The translations under genes were made by a program, and so were the position numbers. The notes beneath the pieces are model-generated. The model was not told the DNA's origin, did not search any database, and saw only the letters and a list, made by a program, of their open reading frames with translations. A DNA stretch of 64,000 bases from an uncultured Acidobacteriota bacterium. GTDB lineage: Bacteria > Acidobacteriota > Vicinamibacteria > Fen-336. Each line of letters starts with the position of its first letter. Within the stretch, counting starts at the first letter, position 1. Shown here piece after piece: positions 2,583-53,019 of the stretch. The stretch spans positions 362,983-426,982 of the forward strand of contig CADEEV010000001.1 in NCBI GenBank assembly GCA_902826455.1, read 5' to 3'.

Positions 2583-4193
2583 ATGCCGAAGCCCCGCAAG
2601 CGCACGCTCACACGCAAGCCCGCCGCCGACGCGCCCGCGCCGCCGCCCGAGCCGATCCGGCCGATCGCGGTCGTGGACATCGGCGCGAGCGCGGTGCGTC
2701 TCACCGTCGCGGACGCGCGTCCCGGCGAGGCCATCGGGATCCTCGAGGAGGCCTCGCGGGGCGTCCTGCTCGGCAAGGACACGTTCACCCACGGCAAGCT
2801 CGGCGCGGCCACCATCGAGGCGACGCTCAAGACCCTCGAGGGCTTCCGGCGCATCATGGACACCTACGGCGTCGTGCGCTACCGCGCGGTGGCCACGAGC
2901 GCCGTGCGCGAGGCCGGCAACCGCGAGACCTTCCTCGACCGGGTGCGGCTGCGCACCGGCATCGACGTCGAGATCATCGACGGCTCCGAGGAGAACCGGC
3001 TCACCTACCTGGCCGTGCGCGAGCGCCTGCGCGGCCACGAGTCGCTCACGGCGGGCGACGCCGTGCTCCTCGAGATCGGCGGCGGCAGCGCCGACATCTC
3101 CTTCCTGCGCAAGGGCCAGCCGACGTACTCCGGCACCTATGCCCTGGGCTCGATCCGCATGCGGCAGAACCTGGCCTCCTGGCAGAGCAGCCGCGAGCAG
3201 TGGCTGCGCCTGCTGCGGCGCCACATCCACAACGTCGTCGGCGACATCCGCCGCGAGATGCCGCTGCGCGAGGCCAAGCACTTCATCGCCCTCGGCGGCG
3301 ACGTCCGCTTCGCGGCCGAGCGGATCCTGGGCGCCGAGCTCCCCGAGGACGTGGCGGTCCTCGAGAAGGGCCAGTTCCTGCAGTTCTGCGACGCGATCCT
3401 CGGCGACGACGTCGAAGGGCTGGTCGCGAACTACCGCCTGTCCCAGGCCGACGCCGAGACGCTCGTGCCCGCCCTCATGGCGTACCGCGAGCTGCTCATC
3501 GAGACGAGCGCCGACCACGTGCTCGTGCCCGACGCGTCGCTGCGCGCCGGCCTGCTCCTCGACCTGGCTCGAGGCGACGAGAGCCGCGAGCTGGAGGACT
3601 TCGGGCGGCAGGTCCTCGCGAGCGCCCAGGCCCTGGGAGAGAAGTACCGCTACGACGGCTCCCACGCGAAGAACGTGGCGCTCCTGGCGGCCCGGCTCTT
3701 CGACGAGCTGCGCGCGGAGCACGGCCTCGCCCCGCGCGACCGGTTGCTGCTCGAGGTGGCGGCGCTGCTCCACGACGTCGGCATCTACGTGAACCTGCGC
3801 GGGCACCACAAGCACACCCAGTACGTGCTGTCGGTGGCCGAGATCTTCGGCCTCTCCCGCGACGACATGGCCATCGTCTCGAACGTGGCGCGCTATCACC
3901 GCCGGGCCACGCCGCAGAAGTCCCATCTGCCCTACATGGCTCTCGACAGCGACGCGCGCGTCGTGGTCAACAAGCTCGCGGCGATCCTGAGGGTGGCGAA
4001 CGCCCTCGACGCCGACCACCTGCAGAAGGTCAAGGACGTGCGCGTCGTGGTCGAGGACGAGGCCTGGGCCCTCGAGGTCCAGGGCGCGGGCGACCTCACC
4101 ATGGAGCGCCTCGCCACCCTCGCGCGCTCGGACTTCATGACCGAGGTGTTCGGCCGCAAGGTGTCGTTCCGCGAAGCGTCGGTCCGGTCATGA
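2583..4193 (+). CDS. ppx: Exopolyphosphatase Ppx/GppA with HD domain
   Basis: 536 aa. The N-terminal half is the Ppx/GppA ASKHA-fold phosphatase: VVDIGASAVRLTVAD (phosphate 1 loop) near residue 30 and LLEIGGGSADISFL (phosphate 2) near residue 165. The C-terminal part is an HD-type domain with LLHDVGIYVN followed by HHKHTQYV. It hydrolyses polyphosphate, or pppGpp in GppA-type members. The stop overlaps the ppk1 start (ATGA), so synthesis and degradation of polyP are co-expressed. The ATG at 2583 was chosen because the -10 element is just upstream and the conserved core follows about 28 residues later. Confidence 0.92.
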   Translation: MPKPRKRTLTRKPAADAPAPPPEPIRPIAVVDIGASAVRLTVADARPGEAIGILEEASRGVLLGKDTFTHGKLGAATIEATLKTLEGFRRIMDTYGVVRYRAVATSAVREAGNRETFLDRVRLRTGIDVEIIDGSEENRLTYLAVRERLRGHESLTAGDAVLLEIGGGSADISFLRKGQPTYSGTYALGSIRMRQNLASWQSSREQWLRLLRRHIHNVVGDIRREMPLREAKHFIALGGDVRFAAERILGAELPEDVAVLEKGQFLQFCDAILGDDVEGLVANYRLSQADAETLVPALMAYRELLIETSADHVLVPDASLRAGLLLDLARGDESRELEDFGRQVLASAQALGEKYRYDGSHAKNVALLAARLFDELRAEHGLAPRDRLLLEVAALLHDVGIYVNLRGHHKHTQYVLSVAEIFGLSRDDMAIVSNVARYHRRATPQKSHLPYMALDSDARVVVNKLAAILRVANALDADHLQKVKDVRVVVEDEAWALEVQGAGDLTMERLATLARSDFMTEVFGRKVSFREASVRS

Positions 4194-6319
4194 CGGACAA
4201 GAAGCCGCGCCGCCGCGATCCGGAGCTGTTCCTGAACCGCGAGCTGTCCTGGCTCGCGTTCAACGGCCGCGTGCTCGAGGAGGCCACGGATCCGGCGAAC
4301 CCGCTCCTGGAGCGCCTGAAGTTCGCCACGATCGTGGCGTCGAACCTCGACGAGTTCTTCATGGTGCGCGTCGCGGCCGTGAAGAACCAGATCGCGGAGG
4401 GCGACACGGCGCCCGATCTCGCCGGCCTCACGCCGACCCAGCAGCTCCAGGAGATCTCGGCCCGGGCCCACGAGATGGTCGACACCCTGTATCGCACCGT
4501 CGTGGGCGAGATCCTCACGGGGCTGGCCGCTCGCGAGATCCGCCTCGTGCCCGTCTCGGGCCTCGACGCCGCGGCCCGCAGCTCGTTGTCGCGCCACTTC
4601 CGCGACGAGATCCTGCCGGCCCTGACGCCCCTCGCGATCGACGTCTCACGTCCCTTCCCGATGCTCGCGGGCCTCAGCCTGAACGTGGCCCTGTTGCTGT
4701 CGCCGATCGAGGGCGAGAGCAAGCCCCGCCTCGGTGTCGTGCAGGTTCCGGCGCGCCTGCGTCGCCTCGTGCGGCTGCCCGGGAGCGGCACGGCCTACGC
4801 CCTCCTCGAGGACCTGATCCGCGCCGAGCTGCCGGCGCTGTTCCCGGGCCAGACGGTCCTCGAGTCGGCCGCGTTCCGCGTCACGCGGGACGCGGAAATG
4901 GACCTCGACGACGAGGGCGGCGGGGACTACCTCGAGGCGATCCAGGAGGAGCTCAAGAAGCGCCGCAAGAGCCAGGTGGTGCGCCTCGAGAGCGAGGCGA
5001 TCGCCACCGACGCGCTGCTGGCCCAGCTCACCGAGCGCCTGGACATCGGTGCCCGCGACATCTACCGCGTCTCGGGGCCGGTCGACATCCGTGCCCTCTT
5101 CGGACTCGTCGAGCTCCCCGCCCTCGAGGATCTCCGCGACCCGCCGCTCAGGCCCCTGCAGTCCCTCGACGACGCCGAGCGCGCCGACATGTTCGCGCTC
5201 ATCGACCAGCGCGATGTCCTCGTCCACAATCCGTACGAGTCCTTCGATCCGGTCGTGGCTTTCGTGTCCCAGGCCGCCGACGACCCGGACGTCCTCGCGA
5301 TCAAGCAGACCTTGTACCGGACGAGCGGCGACTCGCCGATGGTCTTGGCCCTGGCTCGGGCCGCGGAACAGGGCAAGCAGGTGACCGTGCTGGTCGAGCT
5401 GCTGGCCCGCTTCGACGAGCAGTCGAATATCCGCTGGGCGCGCAGCCTCGAGGAGTCGGGCGCCCACGTCATCTACGGCGTCCGCGGCTACAAGACCCAC
5501 GCGAAGATCTGCCTCGTGGTGCGCCGCGGCCGCGACGGGATCAAGCGCTACGTCCATCTCGGGACCGGGAACTACAACGACAAGACCGCGCGCCTCTACA
5601 CCGACTTCGGCCTGATGACCGCGGACCCGGAGATCGGCAAGGACGCCTCGGCGTTCTTCAACGCCCTCACCGGCTACTCCGATCCGCCCCACATGAAGAA
5701 GCTCGCCATGGCGCCGACCCACCTGCGGGGTCGCGTGCTGTCGCTGATCGAGCGCGAGCGCCGCCGCGCCGAGTCGGGCCAGGCCGCCGAGATCACGGCC
5801 AAGATGAACTCCCTGGTGGACGAGGACATCATCCGGGCGCTCTACGACGCGTCGCGGGCGGGCGTCCGGATCCGCCTGAACGTCCGGGGGATCTGCTGCC
5901 TGCGCCCGGGCGTCAAGGGCGTGAGCGAGCGCATCGAGGTGATCTCGATCGTCGACCGCTTTCTCGAGCACGCGCGGATCTTCCACTTCCGGAACGGCGG
6001 CGACGACGAGGTCTATCTCGCGAGCGCCGACTGGATGCCGCGCAACCTGGACCGCCGCGTCGAGCTGCTGTTCCCGGTCCAGGCGCCGGAGCTGCGCGTC
6101 AAGGTCCTGGCCGCCCTCGAGGCGATGTTCCAGGACAACGTGAAGGCGCGGCGCCTGCTGCCCGACGGGACCTACAAGCGCCGCAAGCCCGCGAAAGGCG
6201 AGGAGCCGTTCCGGGTCCAGGCCCACCTGTATCGCGAGGCGCAGCGCGCCCTCGAACGGGCGCGCGCCCAGGCCGGCGTCGTCCTCGAGCCGATCGCGTC
6301 TCCCAAAGCGACGGCGTGA
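4190..6319 (+). CDS. ppk1: Polyphosphate kinase 1
   Basis: 709 aa, the usual length for Ppk1, which reversibly transfers the gamma-phosphate of ATP to polyphosphate. The N-terminal FLNRELSWLAFNGRVLEEA is the family hallmark. The two catalytic phospholipase-D-like histidines are present at about 437 (YKTHAKICLVV) and 594 (FLEHARIFHF), matching E. coli His435 and His592; YVHLGTGNYND is also intact. The ATG overlaps the ppx stop by 4 bp, and its own stop overlaps the GTG of the next gene. Nothing suggests degradation. Confidence 0.97.
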   Translation: MTDKKPRRRDPELFLNRELSWLAFNGRVLEEATDPANPLLERLKFATIVASNLDEFFMVRVAAVKNQIAEGDTAPDLAGLTPTQQLQEISARAHEMVDTLYRTVVGEILTGLAAREIRLVPVSGLDAAARSSLSRHFRDEILPALTPLAIDVSRPFPMLAGLSLNVALLLSPIEGESKPRLGVVQVPARLRRLVRLPGSGTAYALLEDLIRAELPALFPGQTVLESAAFRVTRDAEMDLDDEGGGDYLEAIQEELKKRRKSQVVRLESEAIATDALLAQLTERLDIGARDIYRVSGPVDIRALFGLVELPALEDLRDPPLRPLQSLDDAERADMFALIDQRDVLVHNPYESFDPVVAFVSQAADDPDVLAIKQTLYRTSGDSPMVLALARAAEQGKQVTVLVELLARFDEQSNIRWARSLEESGAHVIYGVRGYKTHAKICLVVRRGRDGIKRYVHLGTGNYNDKTARLYTDFGLMTADPEIGKDASAFFNALTGYSDPPHMKKLAMAPTHLRGRVLSLIERERRRAESGQAAEITAKMNSLVDEDIIRALYDASRAGVRIRLNVRGICCLRPGVKGVSERIEVISIVDRFLEHARIFHFRNGGDDEVYLASADWMPRNLDRRVELLFPVQAPELRVKVLAALEAMFQDNVKARRLLPDGTYKRRKPAKGEEPFRVQAHLYREAQRALERARAQAGVVLEPIASPKATA

Positions 6320-6714
6320 CGGAGCCGCTCGTCCCGGAGCCGGTGCTCTCCGCCGAGGATCGCGTCCTGTTCGAGCTGGGCGTGCGCGAGTTCAACGACG
6401 GCTTGTACTTCGAATGCCACGAGAGCCTCGAGGATCTCTGGAACGGCGTGCGCGGGCCGTCGCGCGACTTCTTCCAGGGGCTCATCCAGGTGTCGGTGGC
6501 GTTCCTGCACCTCGCGCGCTCGAACCCCGCGGGGGCCCAGAGCACACTCGGCCGCGCCCTCAAGCGGCTGTCGGCCTACCCCGATCGCTACTACGGCTTC
6601 GACCTCGGGGCCTACCGCCGCGTGCTCGAGGCGAGACTCGCGCAGATCGCCGCGCGGGACGCGGCCGGCATGGCGGAAGCGCCGCCGGAATGGCGCTTCG
6701 ATCCGCCGGCCTAG
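6316..6714 (+). CDS. DUF309 family protein
   Basis: 132 aa with the DUF309 signature FNDGLYFECHESLEDLW followed by a helical region ending FFQGLIQVSVAFLHLAR. The biochemical function is not established; the conserved H-E residues suggest metal or ligand binding. The GTG start overlaps the ppk1 stop (GTGA), so it is the third gene of the ppx-ppk1 transcript. Its TAG stop shares bases with the stop of the convergent DinB gene (CTAG at 6711-6714). Confidence 0.85.
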   Translation: MTEPLVPEPVLSAEDRVLFELGVREFNDGLYFECHESLEDLWNGVRGPSRDFFQGLIQVSVAFLHLARSNPAGAQSTLGRALKRLSAYPDRYYGFDLGAYRRVLEARLAQIAARDAAGMAEAPPEWRFDPPA

Positions 6715-7631
6715 ACCGCCGCGAGCTCCCGAACCTTCGCGAGGTGCTTGTCGTCGTGGTTCGCGAGGTGCAGGGCGACGGCCTCGAGGCTCATCTCGCC
6801 GCGCGTCGGGTGGAGGCCCATGCGCTTCCAGGCGGCCGCCGGGAGCGCCGAGAGCAGCTTGAGGGTGTCCTGCCGCAGCTCCTTGAAGGCCTTCGCCGCG
6901 GCGCGCACGTCGCTCGTCGCGTACTGGCGCGCCACGGCCGTCCGGTCGTTGTCGAGCAGGAAGAACGACGGCCTGTCGGAGAACGCCATCTTGGTGAAGC
7001 GCTCGACGAACACCAGCTCGATGTCCCGCATGTGGCAGGCGTTCTCGACGACCGACCACTTGCCGTCGGCGGGCCGCTTGGCGGCGCTGGCCGCGTCGAG
7101 GTCCTTGACGACGGCCAGGAGCGCCGCCGGCGCCGACTCGAGACGCGCGAGGACGGCCTGGCGCGACTTGACGCCTTCGATCTGGCCGAGGTGCGCCTCG
7201 TCGTTCCCGACGGCGTGACGCCGCAGGAGCGTCGCCATCGAGAGCTGCCCGGCGGTGCTGTGGACGCCGGTGCGCTCCCACTGCGCCGTCTTCAGCTTCT
7301 TCAGCGTCCGGAGGTTCTCGCGGCGCAGCTTCGACCAGTCGCGCAGCAGCGCGGAGAGCGACTGCGCCCGGTAGTCACGCTCGATGGCGAGGGCGCTGCC
7401 CTCGATGTCGGGCAGCGCCGGGTTGTCCTCGGAGAGGATCCGGCGGTAGCGGTCGGCGTAGGCGAGCTCCTCCATGTCGCGCATGTGGGCGACGATCTCG
7501 AGGATCGACCACTTGCCGGGCGCCGGCCTCGCGAGCAGCGCCTTCTTCGGCAGGCCCTTGACGGCCGCCTTCAGGCGGGCCGGCGTCTCGTCGAGCGTGC
7601 GCAGATGTCCCGTGCGTTCCGTGTCTTCCAA
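6711..7631 (-). CDS. Protein with two tandem DinB-like domains
   Basis: 306 aa. The two halves repeat the same pattern: a helix ending PGKWSILEIVAHMRDMEE (about residues 35-55) and later DGKWSVVENACHMRDIEL (about 190-210), each ending in a His-containing segment (NDEAHLGQIEGV and NHDDKHLAKVREL). These are the metal-binding His positions of the DinB/YfiT four-helix bundle, so this is an internal duplication. DinB-family proteins include thiol-dependent S-transferases and metal-binding proteins; no specific role can be assigned. TTG start at 7631 with GGAGG 6 nt upstream. Confidence 0.8.
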   Translation of the reverse strand: MEDTERTGHLRTLDETPARLKAAVKGLPKKALLARPAPGKWSILEIVAHMRDMEELAYADRYRRILSEDNPALPDIEGSALAIERDYRAQSLSALLRDWSKLRRENLRTLKKLKTAQWERTGVHSTAGQLSMATLLRRHAVGNDEAHLGQIEGVKSRQAVLARLESAPAALLAVVKDLDAASAAKRPADGKWSVVENACHMRDIELVFVERFTKMAFSDRPSFFLLDNDRTAVARQYATSDVRAAAKAFKELRQDTLKLLSALPAAAWKRMGLHPTRGEMSLEAVALHLANHDDKHLAKVRELAAV

Positions 7632-7658
7632 CGACGACCTCCGCGAAGTTGCCCCTTG

Positions 7659-8537
7659 TCAGCGGCCGCTCTCGAGGGCCGCGATGCGGACCTCGAGAGG
7701 CGGGTGCGTCGAGAACCACTGCAGCCAGCTCCGGCCACCGGCGATCTTGAAGCTGGCGAGCGCCGCGTTGTTCACGTCGACGCGCTCCTGGGTCGACATC
7801 AGCCGCCGCAGCGCGCCCACCATGGCCCCGCGCCCCGCGAGGGACGCGCCGCCGGCGTCGGCTCGGAACTCGCGCTGGCGCGAGAACCACGCCACGATCA
7901 GCGAGCCCAGGATGCCGAGGACGATCTCGAGCACGATGCGGACCAGGAAGGAGACCGTGTTGGCGGCCCGCGAATCCATGGCCTGGCGCACGGCGAAGGC
8001 CGCGACGCGGGCGAGGAACATGACGAAGGCGTTCACGACGCCCTGGAGCAGGGTCATCGTCACCATGTCGCCGTTGGCGATGTGGGTGACCTCGTGGGCG
8101 AGCACGCCCTGGACCTCCTCGCGGGTCATGCTGCGCAGCAGCCCGGTCGAGCAGGCCACCAGGCTGCGCTTCTTGCTGGGACCGGTCGCGAAGGCGTTCA
8201 CCTCGGGCGACTCGTAGATGCCGACCTCGGGCATCGGCAGGTTCGCCTGGCGCGTGAGGTGGCCGATCGTGTTGTAGAGCCAGTCGAGGTCCTGGTTGCC
8301 GGTCTGGCCGTTCACGAGCTGCACGCCCATGGCCCGCTTCGCCGTCCAGCGCGAGATCGCGAGGGAGATGAAGGCGCCGCCCATGCCCCAGACGAAGCAG
8401 AAGACCGCGAGGGCGGCGAAGTCGAGCTGGCCGTTGGGTCCGACGTACCCGCCGATGCCGAGCAGGCTGAGGATGATCGACAGCGTGACGACGATGGCGA
8501 TGTTCGTAGCGAGAAAGAGGACGATTCGTTTAGCCAT
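7659..8537 (-). CDS. htpX: Membrane zinc metalloprotease HtpX
   Basis: 292 aa, typical for HtpX, an inner-membrane M48 peptidase that degrades damaged membrane proteins under stress. Two N-terminal membrane helices (about residues 5-25 and 38-60) are followed by NAFATGPSKKRSLVACSTGLL, the zinc site HEVTH near residue 145 (VLAHEVTHIANGDMVT), two more membrane segments, and the third zinc ligand region EFRADAGGASLAG. The ATG at 8537 is followed directly by a hydrophobic segment. Its promoter region is shared divergently with the M28 peptidase gene. Confidence 0.95.
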   Translation of the reverse strand: MAKRIVLFLATNIAIVVTLSIILSLLGIGGYVGPNGQLDFAALAVFCFVWGMGGAFISLAISRWTAKRAMGVQLVNGQTGNQDLDWLYNTIGHLTRQANLPMPEVGIYESPEVNAFATGPSKKRSLVACSTGLLRSMTREEVQGVLAHEVTHIANGDMVTMTLLQGVVNAFVMFLARVAAFAVRQAMDSRAANTVSFLVRIVLEIVLGILGSLIVAWFSRQREFRADAGGASLAGRGAMVGALRRLMSTQERVDVNNAALASFKIAGGRSWLQWFSTHPPLEVRIAALESGR

Positions 8538-8560
8538 GATCTGCCTCCGACCAAAGGATC

Positions 8561-8589
8561 ATTCTAGTCTCCCCGGGCCGTCAACCCAA
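8561..8589 (-). promoter_or_regulatory. Probable sigma-A promoter of htpX
   Basis: On the minus strand TTGGGT (8589-8584), a 17-bp spacer and TAGAAT (8566-8561) form a plausible housekeeping promoter ending 23 bases upstream of the htpX ATG. Confidence 0.5.
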
Positions 8590-8595
8590 GGGCGC

Positions 8596-8601
8596 TAGAA
8601 T
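8596..8601 (+). promoter_or_regulatory. Probable -10 element of M28 peptidase gene
   Basis: TAGAAT ends 7 bases before the ATG at 8609 and overlaps an earlier in-frame ATG at 8600. If used, the transcript would start at about 8608, which favours 8609 as the start and implies a leaderless mRNA. No good -35 is visible. Confidence 0.4.
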
Positions 8602-8608
8602 GGCGGCC

Positions 8609-10060
8609 ATGAAGCCAGCCATGCTGTTTCTCGCCCTGGGCCTGACGCTCCCCGCTCGGGCCGACGACGCCTCCCGGCTCGTGGCCGCGACCCTCGGCCA
8701 CACGCCGCTGCTGCGCGACCTGCAGTCCCTGACCGACGAGATCGGCGGGCGGCCCACCGGCTCGGAAGCGAACCGGCGCGCCGTCGAGTGGGGGCTCGCC
8801 CGGTTCAAGGAGGCCGGGCTCGAGGGCCGCGCCGAGCGCTTCACGATGCCGTCGCTCTGGCTCGAGCGCCGGGCGACGGCCCGCTTCGCCGGCAGCGCGG
8901 CCTTCGAGGCGCCCGCGGTGGCGATGCCGTTCTCGGCGGCGACCCCCGCCGCGGGTGCGGCCGCTCCCGTGGTCGACGGCGGCCACGGCACCGAGGCCGA
9001 CTTCAAGCGGCTGGGAGTCACGGCCAAGGGCGCCTTCGTCCTCGTCGAGACCGGCGAGCTCGTGGACCTCGAGGGCCTGTTCCGCGAGTACGCCGAGGCC
9101 GCCGAGATCGAGCGGCGCGCCTTCGCCGCCGACGTGGCCGGCGTCGCCTACATGGCCTCGCGGCCCCGGGGCCTGCTCTACCGCCACAACGTCTCGATCG
9201 GTCCGAAGAACACGCGGCCGATGCTGATCGTCGAGCGGGAATCGGCGCAGCGCGCCCTGCGCTTCCTGCGCAGCGGCCGGCCCCTCACGCTCACCGCGAC
9301 GATCGAGGTCGAGGGAGGCAAGCCCTACGAGGCCGCGAACGTCGTCGCCGACGTGCGCGGCTCCGAGAAGCCCGACGAGGTCGTCCTGATCGGAGCCCAC
9401 CTCGACTCGTGGGACCTCGGAACCGGCGCCCTCGACAACGGCTGCAACGTCGCCCTCGTGCTCGACATCGCGCGCCAGATCCAGAGCCTGGGCCTGAAGC
9501 CCCGCCGCACGATCCGCTTCGTGCTCTGGAACGGCGAGGAGCAGGGCATGATCGGCTCCTGGGAGTACGCGAAGGCCCACGCCGCCGAGCTCGACCGCCA
9601 CGTGATGGCCTCGTCGTACGACATCGGCAGCGGGCGCATCTCGGGCTTCCTCACGAACGGACGGCCCGAGCTCGACGCGGTCATCGAGCGCGCGCTAGTC
9701 CCCGTCGCAGGGCTCGGCCCGTTCGCCCAGGCCCCCGATCCCGTGGTCGGCACCGACAACTACGACTTCATGATGGAGGGCGTCGCGAACCTGGTCGCGA
9801 ACCAGGAGTCCGCGAACTACGGCCCCAACTACCACGCGGGCTCCGACACCTTCGACAAGGTCGACACGCGGCAGCTCAAGCAGAACACCGCGATCGCCGC
9901 GGCGGTGACCTGGGGCTTCGCGAACGCCGACGTCACGTGGAGGCGCCAGACGCGCGCGGAGATCCAGGCGCTCGTGGACGGCACGACGCTCAAGGACCAG
10001 ATGATCGGCATGGATCTCTACGACGTCTGGGTTTCCGGGCAGCGGGGCCGCAAGAAGTAG
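8609..10060 (+). CDS. Secreted M28 family metallopeptidase
   Basis: 483 aa from the ATG at 8609. It has an N-terminal signal peptide (KPAMLFLALGLTLPARA), a central PA-like insert (about residues 110-220), then the M28 zinc-aminopeptidase core: IGAHLDSWDLGTGALDNG (His/Asp ligands), LWNGEEQGMIGS (catalytic and zinc-bridging Glu pair) and the C-terminal NYHAGSDTFDKVD with the last His ligand. This layout matches glutamate-carboxypeptidase-like or plasma-aminopeptidase-like M28 enzymes, exported to the periplasm or outside for peptide degradation. It is followed by the GC-rich inverted repeat at 10072-10087. Confidence 0.92.
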   Translation: MKPAMLFLALGLTLPARADDASRLVAATLGHTPLLRDLQSLTDEIGGRPTGSEANRRAVEWGLARFKEAGLEGRAERFTMPSLWLERRATARFAGSAAFEAPAVAMPFSAATPAAGAAAPVVDGGHGTEADFKRLGVTAKGAFVLVETGELVDLEGLFREYAEAAEIERRAFAADVAGVAYMASRPRGLLYRHNVSIGPKNTRPMLIVERESAQRALRFLRSGRPLTLTATIEVEGGKPYEAANVVADVRGSEKPDEVVLIGAHLDSWDLGTGALDNGCNVALVLDIARQIQSLGLKPRRTIRFVLWNGEEQGMIGSWEYAKAHAAELDRHVMASSYDIGSGRISGFLTNGRPELDAVIERALVPVAGLGPFAQAPDPVVGTDNYDFMMEGVANLVANQESANYGPNYHAGSDTFDKVDTRQLKQNTAIAAAVTWGFANADVTWRRQTRAEIQALVDGTTLKDQMIGMDLYDVWVSGQRGRKK

Positions 10061-10071
10061 CCCGTTCGTCA

Positions 10072-10087
10072 CGCCGTCGTCACGGCG
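10072..10087. repeat. Small inverted repeat after the M28 gene
   Basis: CGCCGT and ACGGCG form a 6-bp stem with a 4-base loop, 11 bp after the M28 stop. There is no T run, so it is at best a weak transcriptional stop. Confidence 0.35.
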
Positions 10088-10125
10088 CCTGCCTAGGCTT
10101 CCTCGTCGCCGCGAGGAGGCTCGAT

Positions 10126-10362
10126 GATTCCGTCCACGGCAAGGTCGTCGAGACGGTCGGCGCCGGTGCGATGATCGGCGAGATGGCGCTCATCGACCAC
10201 CTGCCGCGCAGCGCCAGTGCCCGCGCCACCACCGACGCCAAGCTCGTGCCGATCGACCAGCGCCGCTTCCTGTTCCTGGTGCAGGAGACGCCGTTCTTCG
10301 CCATCCACGTGATGAAGGTGATGGCGGACCGGCTCCGCCGGATGAACGAGACGGTGGAGTAG
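10126..10362 (+). pseudogene. 5'-truncated cyclic-nucleotide-binding domain
   Basis: Reading in frame to the TAG at 10360 gives the second half of a cNMP-binding (Crp-type) domain: VVETVGAGAMIGEMALIDH (phosphate-binding cassette region), LPRSASARATTDAKLVPID, then FLFLVQETPFFAIHVMKVM. The N-terminal half of the beta-barrel is absent: only about 65 bases separate the recognisable part from the M28 stop, and no other frame supplies it. The only in-frame ATG (10171) would give 63 aa starting inside the ligand pocket. Full-length relatives are about 120-150 aa single-domain proteins. It is most likely a remnant left by a deletion or rearrangement. Confidence 0.7.
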
Positions 10363-10377
10363 GACCTTGGACGGCGG

Positions 10378-11757
10378 CTAGTCGGTGGCGAAGCCGGCGG
10401 CGACCCAGGCGCTCGTGCCGCCGACCACGTTATAGAGGGTCTTGAAGCCGCGGCGCGCGAGGAGGCTGGCGGCGGCGCTCGATCGATAGCCGCCGGCGCA
10501 GATCACCGCCGTGGGCCGCCCGGGCTCGAGGCCGGCGCTCGCCGCATCCAGGCGGTCGAGCGGCACAGGCATGGCTCCCGGCACGTGGCCTGCCGAGAAC
10601 TCCCCGGGCCGCCGCACGTCGATGAGCTGCAGCTCCCGGCGCGACTCGAGCTCGTCGCGCAGCACGCCGACCGGCCACTGGTCGACGTGCTCCAGGGCGC
10701 GCCCGTCGCGGTCCCAGGCCGCGATGCCTCCGTCCAGGTAGCCCGCGACCGCGTCGAGGCCGACCCGGGCGAGGCGCAACGCCGCCTGCCGGGCCTGCTC
10801 CTCGTCCTCGGTGACGAGGACCAGGGGACGACCGGGCTCGAGCAGCGTGCCGCACCACGACGCGAACTGGCCGTCGAGCCCGATGTTCAGGGAGCCGGGC
10901 AGGTGCGCGGTGCCGAAGGAGGTCGTGGCCCGGACGTCCAGCAGCTGCGCGCCGCCGGCCACCGCTTCCGCAGTCGCCGCGGGCGCCAGGGCCGCCGGCG
11001 GCTCGACCTCGGCCAGGGGCGCGGCGCCCTCGCGGTTCATGGCCACGTCCTGGGCGAAGTAGCGCGGCGCCTCGGGCAGGTCCGCGGTCATCATCGAGAC
11101 GAAACGCTCGCGCGGCATCGGCTGCAGCGCGTAGTTCGAGCGGCGCTGCTCGCCGATCGTGGACATCGTCTCCTTGGAGATGTTCCGGCCACACAGCGAG
11201 CCGGCGCCGTGGGCGGGGTAGACCTCGACGCTGTCGGGCAGGCTCAGCAGCTTCGCGTGGAGCGAGTCGTAGAGCAGCCCCGCCATGAGATCGGCCGAGA
11301 AGCCCTTCGCGCCGACCAGGTCCGGCCGGCCCACGTCGCCGATGAACAGCGTGTCGCCCGTGAAGACGAGGCGCGGCTCGGGCCCCGCATCGGCGTCGAA
11401 CACGAGGATGCTGACGCTCTCCGGCGTGTGGCCCGGCGTCTCGAGGACGCGCAGCGTGAGCCTTCCCAGGGCGATCTCCTCGCCGTCGACGACGGCCCGA
11501 TGGGGAAACGCGGCGGCCGCACGCTTGCCGAACACGATCGTGGCGCCGGTGCGCTCCGCCAGCTCCCGGTGACCGCTCACGAAGTCGGCGTGAAGATGCG
11601 TCTCGATCACGTAACGGATCGTCAGGCCGTGCTCGTCGGCGAAGGCGAGGTACTCCTCGACGTCGCGGCGCGGATCCACGACGGCGGCCTCCCCGTCGGA
11701 TCCGATCAGGTAGGAGGCCTGGGCGAGGCAGCCGAGGTAGAACTGCTTGAACTCCAC
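10378..11757 (-). CDS. MBL-fold hydrolase fused to two rhodanese domains
   Basis: 459 aa. Residues 1-240 are a persulfide-dioxygenase-like metallo-beta-lactamase domain with metal ligands in THLHADFVSGH, ETPGHTPES, FTGDTLFIGDVGRPD and VYPAHGAGSLCG. Two rhodanese domains follow (about 260-350 and 365-455). The second has an intact active-site loop, CAGGYRSS; the first has LVTEDEEQ where the Cys should be, so it is probably catalytically dead. Fusions of this kind take part in sulfide/persulfide oxidation. GTG start, 19 bp after the phosphate transporter stop, so it may be the last gene of that operon. Confidence 0.9.
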   Translation of the reverse strand: MEFKQFYLGCLAQASYLIGSDGEAAVVDPRRDVEEYLAFADEHGLTIRYVIETHLHADFVSGHRELAERTGATIVFGKRAAAAFPHRAVVDGEEIALGRLTLRVLETPGHTPESVSILVFDADAGPEPRLVFTGDTLFIGDVGRPDLVGAKGFSADLMAGLLYDSLHAKLLSLPDSVEVYPAHGAGSLCGRNISKETMSTIGEQRRSNYALQPMPRERFVSMMTADLPEAPRYFAQDVAMNREGAAPLAEVEPPAALAPAATAEAVAGGAQLLDVRATTSFGTAHLPGSLNIGLDGQFASWCGTLLEPGRPLVLVTEDEEQARQAALRLARVGLDAVAGYLDGGIAAWDRDGRALEHVDQWPVGVLRDELESRRELQLIDVRRPGEFSAGHVPGAMPVPLDRLDAASAGLEPGRPTAVICAGGYRSSAAASLLARRGFKTLYNVVGGTSAWVAAGFATD

Positions 11758-48512: not shown

Positions 48513-50843
48513 ATGCGTCGACGCGCGATCGTGCTCGCCATCCTCGTGTCGGCCGTGGTGATCGGCCTCGTTCTCCACAGCCAGCGCCCGCCCGCCAGCG
48601 ACGCCGACGCGCGCACGCGCCTCACCCGCCTGCGGCCCGTGCCCGAGGGACTGAACGTCGTGATCGTCACCCTCGACACCACGCGCGCGGATCGGCTCGG
48701 CTGTTACGGGGCGAAGGGCGCGGAGACGCCCAACCTCGACGCCCTCGCGAGGGACGGCGTCCTGTTCGAGCAGGCGACGGCCACCGTGCCGCTCACGTTT
48801 CCGTCCCACTCGGCGATCTTCACGGGCCTGGTGCCGCCTCACCACGGCGTCCACGACAACGGCGGCTTCTTCCTCGACGAGAGCAAGACGACGCTCGCCG
48901 AGCGCATGAAGGGCGCCGGCTACGCGACGGGCGCGTTCATCGCCGCGTGGGTGCTGGACTCGAAATGGGGGCTCGCCCAGGGCTTCGACACGTACGCGGA
49001 CAAGTTCGACCTGTCGAAGTACAAGGTCGTGTCGCTCGGGACGGTGCAGAAGCCGGGCGACGAGGTGATGGACGAGGCGCTGGCCTGGATGGACGGCGTG
49101 CGCGATCGCAAGTTCCTGTCGTGGATCCACCTCTACGATCCCCACAGTCCCTACGAGGCGCCCGAGCCGTACCGCTCGCGCTTCAAGGGCCAGCCGTACA
49201 ACGCCGAGATCGCCTACACCGACCACGTCGTCGGCCGCCTCACGACGTGGCTGCGCGAGAAGAACCTGATGGAGCGCACGATCGTGGTGGTGACCGCCGA
49301 CCACGGAGAGGCTTTGGGCGACCACGGCGAGTCGACCCACTCCTTCTTCATCTACGACGCCACCACCCACGTCCCGCTGATCGTGCGCACTCCCTGGGGC
49401 CTCAAGGGACGCAGCCGCACCCAGGTGGGCAGCGTCGACATCTTCCCGACGATCCTGGATCTCGTGGGACTGCCGGCCCAGGACGGCATCGACGGCCACT
49501 CGCTGGCCCGCTCGCTGTTCGATACCGGCGCCGAGCTCGGCCACGTGGCGTACTCGGAGACGTACTACCCGCGCTTCCACTACGGCTGGCAGCACCTGCA
49601 GAGCCTGCGCGACGGGCGGTACAAGTTCATCGAGGCGCCCACGCCCGAGCTGTACGACGTCGGCGAGGACCCCGGGGAGTCGAGGAACATCTACAAGGCG
49701 TTCAGCAAGCGCGCGGAGGAGCTGCGCGTGAAGCTGCGCGCGCTCACGGGCGGCGCCGCGGCCCACGTGCCCGACCAGCAGCAGCTCGATCCCGAGACCC
49801 TGCAGCGCCTCGCGGCGCTCGGCTACGTCGGCAGCGCCGTCCAGGTGGACCCGGAGGCCGTCCTCCCGGACCCCAAGGACAAGATCGGCCTCTACAAGAT
49901 GATGCACAGCGCGCGCGACCTCGCCCAGGAGGAGAAGTTCGCGGAGGCCGTCACGATCATGCAGAAGGTCGTCGTGCAGGACCCCGACATCGTCGACGCC
50001 TACATCAGCCTGGGGAACTGGCTGATGCGGCTGCGCCGCCCCGACGAGGCCGTGGCGTCGTTCCAGCAGGTGCTCACGCGGCAGCCCGAGAACAGCCTCG
50101 CGATCCTGAACCTGGCGAACGTGTACCGCGCCCGGGGCCAGGCCGAGTCCGCGATCGCGGGCTACCGGACGGTCCTGAAGCTCGACTCGAAGAACCCGCA
50201 GAACTGGTACCAGCTCGCGACGCTCTATCTCGACATCGGGCGCGTGAGCGACGCCGAGACCACTTTCCGCGAGGCCCTGGTCGCCAACCCGAAGATGGGC
50301 GCCGCGTACAACAGCCTCGGGGTCATCGCGTGGACTCGCGGCCGCAAGGCGGAAGCCGAGGGCCTGTTCCGCAAGGGCCTCGAGCTCGAGCCCGACATCG
50401 CCACCGGTCGCGTCAACCTGGCGCGTGTGCTCGAGGATCGCGGCGACCTCGCGGGCGCGGAAAAGCTCTACCGCGAGGAGCTCGAGATCTACGCGGACAG
50501 CGGCAAGGCTCGCTTCAACCTCGCGCAGCTCCTGCGCCAGCGCGGCGACCGTGCCGGCTACCTGGCCGAGCTCCAGCGCGCCATCGAGAAGGCACCCGAG
50601 TTCGGTCCCGCGTTCTTCTTCCTCGCCCGCGAGGAGCTCCAGTCGGGCGGACTCGCGGGCGCCGAGGAGATCGCGAAGCGCGGCCTCGAGGTGGATCCAC
50701 GCTCGGAGGTGGCTCCCCTCGGGCACTACGTTCTCGCCGACGTCTACAGCCGTCGCGGCGAGCGCGAGAAAGCCGCGGCCGAGGCGCGCGCCGCACGCGA
50801 CCTCGAAACGGCCCTCGCCGCGCGACGCCGCCCCGCCCTGTGA
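48513..50843 (+). CDS. Sulfatase-like/TPR fusion protein
   Basis: 776 aa. N-terminal membrane anchor (AIVLAILVSAVVIGLVL), an alkaline-phosphatase-superfamily domain (about 50-430) with metal sites in VTLDTTRADRLGCYG and TADHGEALGDHGE, then about ten TPR helices (about 460-770). At the place where sulfatases have the formylglycine motif CxPSR it reads LTFPSHSAIFTG, so a Thr occupies the Cys position; a Cys/Ser-type sulfatase activation is not possible. It may be a phosphodiesterase or phosphotransferase. Its stop overlaps the start of the next gene. Confidence 0.87.
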   Translation: MRRRAIVLAILVSAVVIGLVLHSQRPPASDADARTRLTRLRPVPEGLNVVIVTLDTTRADRLGCYGAKGAETPNLDALARDGVLFEQATATVPLTFPSHSAIFTGLVPPHHGVHDNGGFFLDESKTTLAERMKGAGYATGAFIAAWVLDSKWGLAQGFDTYADKFDLSKYKVVSLGTVQKPGDEVMDEALAWMDGVRDRKFLSWIHLYDPHSPYEAPEPYRSRFKGQPYNAEIAYTDHVVGRLTTWLREKNLMERTIVVVTADHGEALGDHGESTHSFFIYDATTHVPLIVRTPWGLKGRSRTQVGSVDIFPTILDLVGLPAQDGIDGHSLARSLFDTGAELGHVAYSETYYPRFHYGWQHLQSLRDGRYKFIEAPTPELYDVGEDPGESRNIYKAFSKRAEELRVKLRALTGGAAAHVPDQQQLDPETLQRLAALGYVGSAVQVDPEAVLPDPKDKIGLYKMMHSARDLAQEEKFAEAVTIMQKVVVQDPDIVDAYISLGNWLMRLRRPDEAVASFQQVLTRQPENSLAILNLANVYRARGQAESAIAGYRTVLKLDSKNPQNWYQLATLYLDIGRVSDAETTFREALVANPKMGAAYNSLGVIAWTRGRKAEAEGLFRKGLELEPDIATGRVNLARVLEDRGDLAGAEKLYREELEIYADSGKARFNLAQLLRQRGDRAGYLAELQRAIEKAPEFGPAFFFLAREELQSGGLAGAEEIAKRGLEVDPRSEVAPLGHYVLADVYSRRGEREKAAAEARAARDLETALAARRRPAL

Positions 50844-51778
50844 GCCTCGCGCGCCGCGCCCTCCTGGTCCTCGTCGCCGTGGTGATCGTCACGATCGCGG
50901 GCCTGTACCTCCGGCTCACCCGCGAGGTGCCCCTGCCTCCCGATGCGCGCGGCACCTTGCTGTACCTGGGGGATCGCGGCGGCGCCGACACGCTGTACGC
51001 CCGCTCGCTGGCCGACGGCAGCGAGCGCCGGCTCACGTACTTCACGGAGCCGGTGCGCGATCCGGCCTTGTCGCCCGATGGAAGCCGCGTCGCCTTCTCG
51101 GTCGGCGGCCGCATCGGGGTGGTGGTCCTCGCGACGGGGGACGTGCGGCTTCTCACCTTCGGCATCGACTATCGCGACGTCCAGCCGGCCTGGCGCGCCG
51201 ACGGCCAGGCGCTCATCGTGGTGGCGCGACGGCCCGGCGAGACCGCGGGCGACCTCCACCTGCTCTCGCCCCTCGATCCCGGCGGCGGCCGCACCGGGCG
51301 CACGCCCGTGACGCTGACACGGGGCCTCGACGAGAGCCAGCCGGCGCTCTCCCCGGACGGCCGGTTCGTCGTGTTCGTCCGCGAGGACAACCTCGTGAGG
51401 CAGGAGCTCGACAACGGACGCACGCGCCGCCTGACGGGCGGGTTTCGCAAGACGCGCCAGCCGCTCTTCCTGCCCGGCGGCCGCATCCTCTGCCTGTGGG
51501 CCCTCGAGAAGGCCTTCGGCATCGACGTCATGGACGCCGACGGCAAGAACCGCTCGACGCTCGGCCAGGGCACGACCTACTACCGCTCCGTGACGCCGTC
51601 CCCCGACGGAAGGTTCTTCGCCGCGACGTTCACCTACGACCTCCGCTTCCACCCGGCCCTCGCCTTGAGGCCGAAGCACGTCGAGGAAGTCCACCTCCTC
51701 GACGCCCACGGAGTGTTCCTCGCGCCCCTCGTGCGGTCGTTTCGCGACTCGAACCACTCCCCGCAGTGGGCCCGTTGA
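50840..51778 (+). CDS. Membrane-anchored TolB-like beta-propeller protein
   Basis: 312 aa. N-terminal membrane helix (LLVLVAVVIVTIAGLYLRL) followed by PD40/TolB-type repeats: DPALSPDGSRVAFSV, DVQPAWRADGQALIVV, SQPALSPDGRFVVFV, RQPLFLPGGRILCLW and SVTPSPDGRFFAATF, about five to six propeller blades. Such propellers bind proteins or carbohydrates in the periplasm. GTG start overlaps the stop of the sulfatase-like gene, so the two act in one unit. Function otherwise unknown. Confidence 0.83.
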   Translation: MSLARRALLVLVAVVIVTIAGLYLRLTREVPLPPDARGTLLYLGDRGGADTLYARSLADGSERRLTYFTEPVRDPALSPDGSRVAFSVGGRIGVVVLATGDVRLLTFGIDYRDVQPAWRADGQALIVVARRPGETAGDLHLLSPLDPGGGRTGRTPVTLTRGLDESQPALSPDGRFVVFVREDNLVRQELDNGRTRRLTGGFRKTRQPLFLPGGRILCLWALEKAFGIDVMDADGKNRSTLGQGTTYYRSVTPSPDGRFFAATFTYDLRFHPALALRPKHVEEVHLLDAHGVFLAPLVRSFRDSNHSPQWAR

Positions 51779-51802
51779 CGCGCAAGACCTTCCGGGTATG
51801 AT
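51775..51802 (+). promoter_or_regulatory. Sigma-A promoter of the lysW-like/larE pair
   Basis: TTGACG (overlapping the preceding stop codon), 16-bp spacer, TATGAT. Leader of about 23 nt with GAGGAGG. It gives the pair its own promoter. Confidence 0.65.
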
Positions 51803-51831
51803 CCGAAAATTGTCGCGAGGAGGTCGTGAGG

Positions 51832-51999
51832 ATGGCCGTGTGTCCCGAGTGCGATGCCGCCGTGGAGATCGACGAGTACGACGTCGACAAGGGCGAGATC
51901 ATCTCCTGCCCTGAGTGCGGCGTGGATCTCGCCGTCGTCGGCCTGTCGCCCCTCGAGCTCGATCTGGCGCCCCAGGACGAGGACGACTGGGAAGAATGA
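51832..51999 (+). CDS. LysW-like amino-group carrier protein
   Basis: 55 aa. Zinc-ribbon pairs CPEC (residues 4-7) and CPEC (26-29), then [21 protein letters not shown] at the C-terminus, read as two parts: the LSPLELDLAP block and an acidic tail. The layout matches LysW/ArgW carriers, whose C-terminal EDWGE glutamate is joined to amino acids by LysX-type ligases. Here the tail reads EDDWEE: the terminal Glu is kept but Gly is replaced. No LysX, LysZ or LysY gene is nearby; instead its stop overlaps the ATG of larE (ATGA). Too short for most gene finders but has a strong promoter and ribosome-binding site. Confidence 0.85.
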   Translation: MAVCPECDAAVEIDEYDVDKGEIISCPECGVDLAVVGLSPLELDLAPQDEDDWEE

Positions 52000-52814
52000 C
52001 CCCTCACGACCGCGAGGCCGACCTCGACGCGATCCTCGACGGGATGGGATCGGTCCTGGTGGCCTACAGCGGCGGCGTCGACAGCGCCTACCTCGCGGCC
52101 CGCGCGCACCGTCGCCTGGGCGCCCGCGCCCTCGCCGTCACCGCCGACTCCGAGTCGCTCGCCGCGGCGCAGCGCGAGCGGGCCGTGGCGATCGCGGCCG
52201 AGACCGGGTTCGCCCACCGCGTGATCCGCACCCGCGAGCTCGACGATCCTCTCTACCTGCGCAACGATGCCGATCGTTGCTATCGCTGCAAGACCGAGCT
52301 GTTCGGCCGGCTGCTGCCCCTCGCGGCCTCCCTCGATCTCGCCCACGTCGCGTACGGCCTGATCGTCGACGACATGGCGGACTTCCGGCCCGGCCACCGA
52401 GCCGCGGCCGAGGCCGGCGTGCGCAGCCCGCTCGCCGAAGCGGGCCTGACGAAGCAGGACGTGCGCGCGCTCTCGCGGGAGATGGGTCTTGCGACCTGGG
52501 ACCTGCCGGCGTCGCCGTGCCTGTCGTCGCGACTGCCCTACGGCACCCCGGTCACCCCCGAGGCGCTGCGCCGGGTCGATCGCGCCGAGGCGGCCGTCGC
52601 CGCCCTGGGCTTCCGCGAGTTCCGCGTGCGACATCTCGGGGAGCGCGCCCGCGTCGAGATCGCCCCCGAGGAGCTCGTCCGGGTCGCGGACCCCTCGCTG
52701 CGCGAGACGCTCGCGCGGCTCGTGAAGGCCGCCGGTTACGCCGAGGTCGTGATCGATCCCGAGGGCTACCGGCGCGGCCGACTGAACGAGGCCTTGAGGG
52801 TCCTGCCGGCCTGA
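51996..52814 (+). CDS. larE: LarE-type ATP-dependent sulfur transferase
   Basis: 272 aa PP-loop ATPase. The ATP loop is [14 protein letters not shown] (about 20-33). The cysteines are in [11 protein letters not shown] and in [13 protein letters not shown], the latter being the sacrificial or cluster-binding Cys of LarE. In known LarE proteins the enzyme adenylates and thiolates a pyridinium carboxylate to build the nickel-pincer cofactor; forms with three cysteines can carry a [4Fe-4S] cluster. LarB and LarC are not in the window. Translational overlap with the LysW-like gene suggests a shared job. Confidence 0.9.
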
Positions 52815-52860: not shown

Positions 52861-53019
52861 ATGTTCGGTCTCGGTTTTCCTGAACTCCTGCTGATCCTGT
52901 TCATCGTCGTCGTGATCTTCGGCACGAGCCGCATTCCGGAACTCGGCAAGGGCCTGGGCGAGGGCATTCGCAACTTCAAGAAGGCCGTCAAGGACGAAGA
53001 GAAGCCGAAGCAGCCCTGA
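52861..53019 (+). CDS. tatA: Twin-arginine translocase subunit TatA
   Basis: 52 aa. A single N-terminal membrane helix ([15 protein letters not shown]) ends in the FG hinge ([15 protein letters not shown]), followed by the amphipathic helix [14 protein letters not shown] and a short charged tail. It forms the Tat pore for folded proteins. ATG at 52861, 46 bp after larE; GGAGG sits 7 nt upstream. tatB/tatC are not in the window. Confidence 0.95.

Follow-up and report, generated by a model that had tools for sequence, protein, structure and literature searches.

The stretch of DNA analysed here (the window; 64,000 nucleotides from an uncultured Acidobacteriota bacterium) contains a gene for a small LysW-like protein that is directly followed by larE. 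Our best explanation, which we judge to have an even chance of being correct and which is drawn from sequence comparisons, is that the small protein may be an accessory zinc-ribbon protein without carrier function that was recruited into an operon with LarE. The features of the locus are as follows.

51775..51802, + strand: sigma-70-like promoter, TTGACG-16-TATGAT (motif scan; one found, none expected in shuffled sequences)
51818..51823, + strand: Shine-Dalgarno sequence AGGAGG, 8 nt before the ATG (read from the sequence)
51832..51999, + strand: LysW-like zinc-ribbon protein, 55 aa, tail EDDWEE (open reading frame, profile and structure-relative matches)
51996..51999, + strand: ATGA start/stop overlap of 4 nt, translational coupling (read from the sequence)
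51996..52814, + strand: LarE, ATP-dependent sulfurtransferase, 272 aa, SGGVDS, CXXC-C type with C95, C98 and C175 (profile, structure-relative and motif matches)
52861..53019, + strand: TatA/E, downstream neighbour, thought not to be part of the module (neighbour reading)

The open reading frame of the small protein ends in GAATGA, and the ATG within this sequence (51996) is the start codon of larE. A sequence-only reading of the window had described a 55-residue LysW-type protein with an EDDWEE tail that overlaps larE by 4 nt, together with a promoter of its own for the pair; the coordinates of the open reading frame and the match to PF21344 bear out the former, and the sigma-70-like site at 51775-51802 supports the latter. 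Additionally, a TATNAT-like -10 hexamer is present approximately 30 nt before the start of the lysW-like gene in four of the five close relatives examined (L008-L011), and in 15 of the paired loci listed the two reading frames could likewise overlap by 4 nt as ATGA or GTGA. The region upstream of the pair (48513-50843 of the window) encodes a sulfatase-like protein with C-terminal TPR-like repeats, which is common to several relatives in family f1.

The small protein matches the LysW-like globular domain PF21344 with 52 bits (cut-off 27), whereas its scores against the two carrier profiles remain below their cut-offs, just under in the case of the lysW equivalog TIGR01206 (52.3 versus 53.2 bits) and more clearly in the case of NF041070 (46.1 versus 75 bits). 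Its closest relative of solved structure is LysW of T. thermophilus (E 4.6e-11). The four cysteines of the zinc ribbon, arranged as CxxC pairs, are invariant in an alignment of 17 sequences, and the globular domain is strongly conserved, with 17 synonymous versus 6 replaced codons between the source genome (G000) and the relative G002. A comparison with the LysW/ArgW carriers (TIGR01206, NF041070; structures 3wwl, 5k2m and 3vpb) reveals a common zinc-ribbon fold, the four cysteines, a similar size, the SPLxLxxAP region and an acidic tail with a tryptophan near its end. The major differences are that the family of the small protein lacks EDWGE, has a variable last residue and often carries a long Asp/Glu tail, and that the small protein is coupled to larE and has no LysX/ArgX partner.

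The pairing was surveyed in 60 genomes, namely the source genome and 59 relatives, most of which are metagenome-assembled, such that some absent genes may be assembly gaps. A pair was counted when a LysW-like gene lies directly upstream of larE on the same strand with no more than 230 bp between the matches. Of the 55 genomes that have LarE, 36 contain the pair, which spans eight families of the class Vicinamibacteria and at least three gene neighbourhoods; this frequency is far beyond chance. All LarE-containing members are paired in families f1, f4, f5, f7, f10, f12 and f13, as are five of six in f9, where the LysW-like gene of the exception (G043) is located at a contig end; the pair is not present in f2, f3, f6, f8 and f11. 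The named relatives are Acidobacteriota and, where the record names a class, mostly Vicinamibacteria. More than half of 80 loci from the genome collection are likewise paired, and every locus with a LarE link comes from an acidobacterial record; the matches from Bacillota, Chloroflexota and Micrarchaeota among these loci are LysX-linked. The conservation in relatives that the sequence-only reading had proposed to survey is thus observed, and its suggestion that the pairing is new agrees with the open-access literature searched, in which no earlier report of a LysW-like/LarE pairing was found.

The surroundings of the pair, with gene names taken mostly from reading the sequences, consist of tatA and pal in f1, moaC-moeA in f10, and a response regulator with a large membrane-protein gene in other families. 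Genes that are kept together amid a changing context are usually, though not always, functionally linked. Among the conserved neighbours in 18 contexts, in which not all shared clusters are family-annotated, no other lar gene is present near the pair. In a quick LarE tree, whose base is without resolution and which includes some long branches, the paired LarEs are clustered, and a single origin of the coupling fits this tree as well as several origins do. Genes resembling moeA and moaC are found near the pair in f1 and f10 (L053, L055, L057, L059, L066 and L067) and are not conserved elsewhere.

LarE itself appears to be an ordinary enzyme of the [4Fe-4S] type. It scores 307 bits against TIGR00268 (cut-off 150), and its residues 6-267 match LarE of L. 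plantarum, the closest solved structure (5udq and others; E 1.7e-39). It carries SGGVDS and the full cysteine set C95xxC98 and C175, and the CXXC-C motif is present in all 67 paired LarEs. In LarE of Thermotoga maritima these cysteines bind a [4Fe-4S] cluster, whereas LarE of L. plantarum sacrifices a single cysteine and is without CXXC-C (PMC9283937); the window LarE is thus homologous to the L. plantarum enzyme and differs from it in having all three cysteines. The source genome (5.26 Mb, listed as 100% complete) contains a single larE, a single larB (G000:C1:18970-19593, 295 bits) and a single larC (G000:C19:56562-57053, 192 bits). The sequence-only reading was correct that LarB and LarC are absent from the window, and both are encoded in the rest of the genome. 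The presence of single larB and larC genes elsewhere, together with the CXXC-C type of LarE, fits synthesis of the nickel-pincer nucleotide (NPN) as the ordinary reading, in which LarE of this organism is predicted to insert sulfur into P2CMN.

The system resembles that of T. maritima (PMC9283937) in the SGGXDS and CXXC-C motifs and in the co-occurrence of LarB and LarC, and differs in having scattered lar genes and an operon that includes a LysW-like gene, and in that LarA is not found in the source genome (best Lar_N match E 0.5). Counted across searches, the set of larB, larC and larE occurs in the absence of any Lar_N match at E 1e-10 in 26 of the 60 genomes, and approximately 15% of genomes in an earlier survey have these three genes and no LarA (PMC11796402). 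The source genome is therefore a candidate for the non-LarA NPN proteins postulated in that study.

In LysW/ArgW, the amino group is attached at the final Glu of the EDWGE tail, and this tail is recognised by LysX/ArgX (PMC10433800). A total of 67 distinct LarE-linked sequences, a few of which are overlapping readings of one gene, were compared with respect to this tail, and none ends in [DE][DE]WGE. The LysX-linked LysWs from the same searches end in DWGE in 11 of 12 cases and in DWGQ in the other. The last residue is Glu in 53 of the 67 LarE-linked sequences and is not Glu in the remaining 14. The window protein ends in EE; the residues found at this position among the relatives are E, S, T, N, P, R, D and A, and the atypical endings include EEWS, EEWT, EEWDAS, REWRDN and KEWKEP, as well as GDS and RDS. 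After residue 46, the tails of the LarE-linked family average 75% Asp and Glu. Many of the sequences have long Asp/Glu tails, for which a final Glu is often expected from composition alone.

A profile search of the source genome found no LysX/ArgX over the cut-off (best match 160 bits versus 275.6). LysX exceeds the cut-off in 17 of the 60 genomes, among which are neither the source genome nor any f1 relative. The 160-bit match is a RimK-family ligase that is nearest to MptN (257 bits, also under the MptN cut-off). It lies in a cluster on the minus strand (L191, G000:C1:158001-172000, positions 3148-11645) whose genes, by reading, are of tetrahydromethanopterin/formylmethanofuran and cyclohydrolase-type C1 metabolism, and this cluster with its MptN-like ligase explains the sub-threshold LysX match. 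Additionally, DapF is present in the source genome, and the DAP route can thus supply lysine.

The absence of LysX, the presence of DapF, the lack of EDWGE and the variable last residue disfavour the carrier idea, and the small protein is probably derived from LysW with loss of the carrier function. The sequence-only reading had proposed a carrier-bound route to a sulfur compound; in the form considered here, the C-terminal Glu would be loaded with an amino group or metabolite by an unrecognised ligase, and LarE would thiolate the bound cargo. The LysW fold with its four cysteines and the final Glu of EDDWEE and of most paired homologues are compatible with this route. However, neither EDWGE nor the C-terminal Glu is conserved, a final Glu in long acidic tails is likely by composition, the sole LysX-like protein is MptN-like, LarE already has its own partners in LarB and LarC, and the LysW-like protein persists in genomes without NPN genes, which together render such a route improbable. 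For some members, a carrier role retains a small probability in view of the DWEE tail of the window protein and the 53 paired sequences that end in Glu. Among the findings that the sequence-only reading had named as speaking against it, the presence of larB and larC outside the window is observed, whereas that of lysX elsewhere and an unconserved pairing are not.

Another way for the C terminus to act would be as a sulfur donor, with a thiocarboxylate that feeds sulfide to the LarE cluster, as in the TtuA/TtuB thiouridine system. TtuA is, like the window LarE, a PP-loop enzyme with a three-cysteine [4Fe-4S] cluster and a small partner, and it uses the protein thiocarboxylate of the sulfur carrier TtuB (PMC9283937). 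This likeness is an analogy only: the small protein has the fold of a zinc ribbon rather than a beta-grasp, its C terminus is highly variable across the family, and the C-terminal Gly-Gly of the sulfur carriers TtuB, MoaD and ThiS is absent from the window protein, which make sulfur donation by this protein extremely unlikely. A role of the acidic tail in buffering or delivering nickel or iron for NPN synthesis also appears very improbable. NPN requires nickel, LarE of the CXXC-C type requires iron, and the Asp/Glu-rich tails of the family might bind such metals; however, the tail of the window protein is short, a histidine-rich motif is absent, and the gene is kept in genomes without lar genes.

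In the accessory-protein explanation that we prefer, the LysW-derived zinc ribbon with its acidic tail would no longer be a covalent amino-group carrier, and in much of Vicinamibacteria the lysW-like gene and larE would make up one operon with coupled translation. LysW binds its enzymes through both its globular domain and its tail. The retained fold and acidic tail suggest that the small protein may likewise dock non-covalently on its partners, and the translational coupling suggests a benefit to LarE in Vicinamibacteria, where the small protein may help in folding or in the handling of the cluster or substrate. In NPN synthesis, LarE would thiolate P2CMN, which LarB produces, to P2TMN, with LarB and LarC encoded at other sites of the genome, and the small protein would have at least one additional role independent of LarE. 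That it acts directly on LarE is plausible. The net charges of paired and unpaired LarEs, which were compared as a sign of docking, reveal no clear difference. A stronger version, in which the former carrier is a dedicated non-covalent subunit or chaperone of this [4Fe-4S] sulfur insertase and thus a new NPN component of Acidobacteriota, seems to us rather unlikely. If the small protein does act on LarE, it would represent a fourth component of NPN synthesis in a phylum that is abundant in soil, and LysW-type proteins would serve for more than the carriage of amino acids. Even otherwise, the results suggest that many LysW-like genes of Acidobacteriota do not encode amino-group carriers, with consequences for the prediction of pathways.

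The retention of the LysW-like gene without larE, or unlinked to it, weakens a LarE-specific role. Two genomes of family f4 (G037 and G041) lack larB, larC and larE, which the same searches find in relatives, and keep the LysW-like gene; in G041 it occupies the syntenic site and is now immediately followed by the gene that related families have after larE. In families f6 and f8, the LysW-like gene adjoins pal and larE is located elsewhere (G049 is without a clear LysW-like match), and the LarEs of these families form a separate clade in the LarE tree. In the Terriglobia-type genomes, larE is present in 22 of 22 and lies away from the LysW-like gene, whose conserved neighbourhood is an unrelated one (peptidase-like, rhomboid-like and carboxypeptidase-regulatory-like genes). 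Either the small protein thus does something that does not involve LarE, or some lineages can dispense with its role on LarE. These observations bear on the main rival to the accessory-protein explanation, according to which the two genes are operon neighbours only: the small protein would serve some general purpose that does not depend on LarE, such as that of a regulator or adaptor, and the position of larE behind its promoter would have arisen by chance and been kept by vertical descent. The syntenic G041 locus and the unlinked genes of the Terriglobia-type genomes, f6 and f8 are as expected from such an arrangement, whereas the maintenance of the pair over eight families amid changing surroundings, usually with overlapping or nearly overlapping frames, argues against it, and we regard it as a real possibility of clearly less than even weight.

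Further features of LysW-like proteins were observed in these genomes. Those of L111 and L117-L150 (mostly Terriglobia) end mostly in EDGDYS or EDGDFS, and the LysW-like gene of G037 (G037:C14:11501-11689) contains an in-frame partial repeat, such that query residues 32-43 are matched twice. The genome G058 is without LarE and a second LysW-like gene and keeps larB and larC, which may reflect an assembly gap. In the source genome, a second LysW-like protein of 51 aa that ends in EEEG (L051, positions 4864-5019; G000:C64) is encoded directly behind a polyprenyl synthase-like gene, with no lysine genes nearby.
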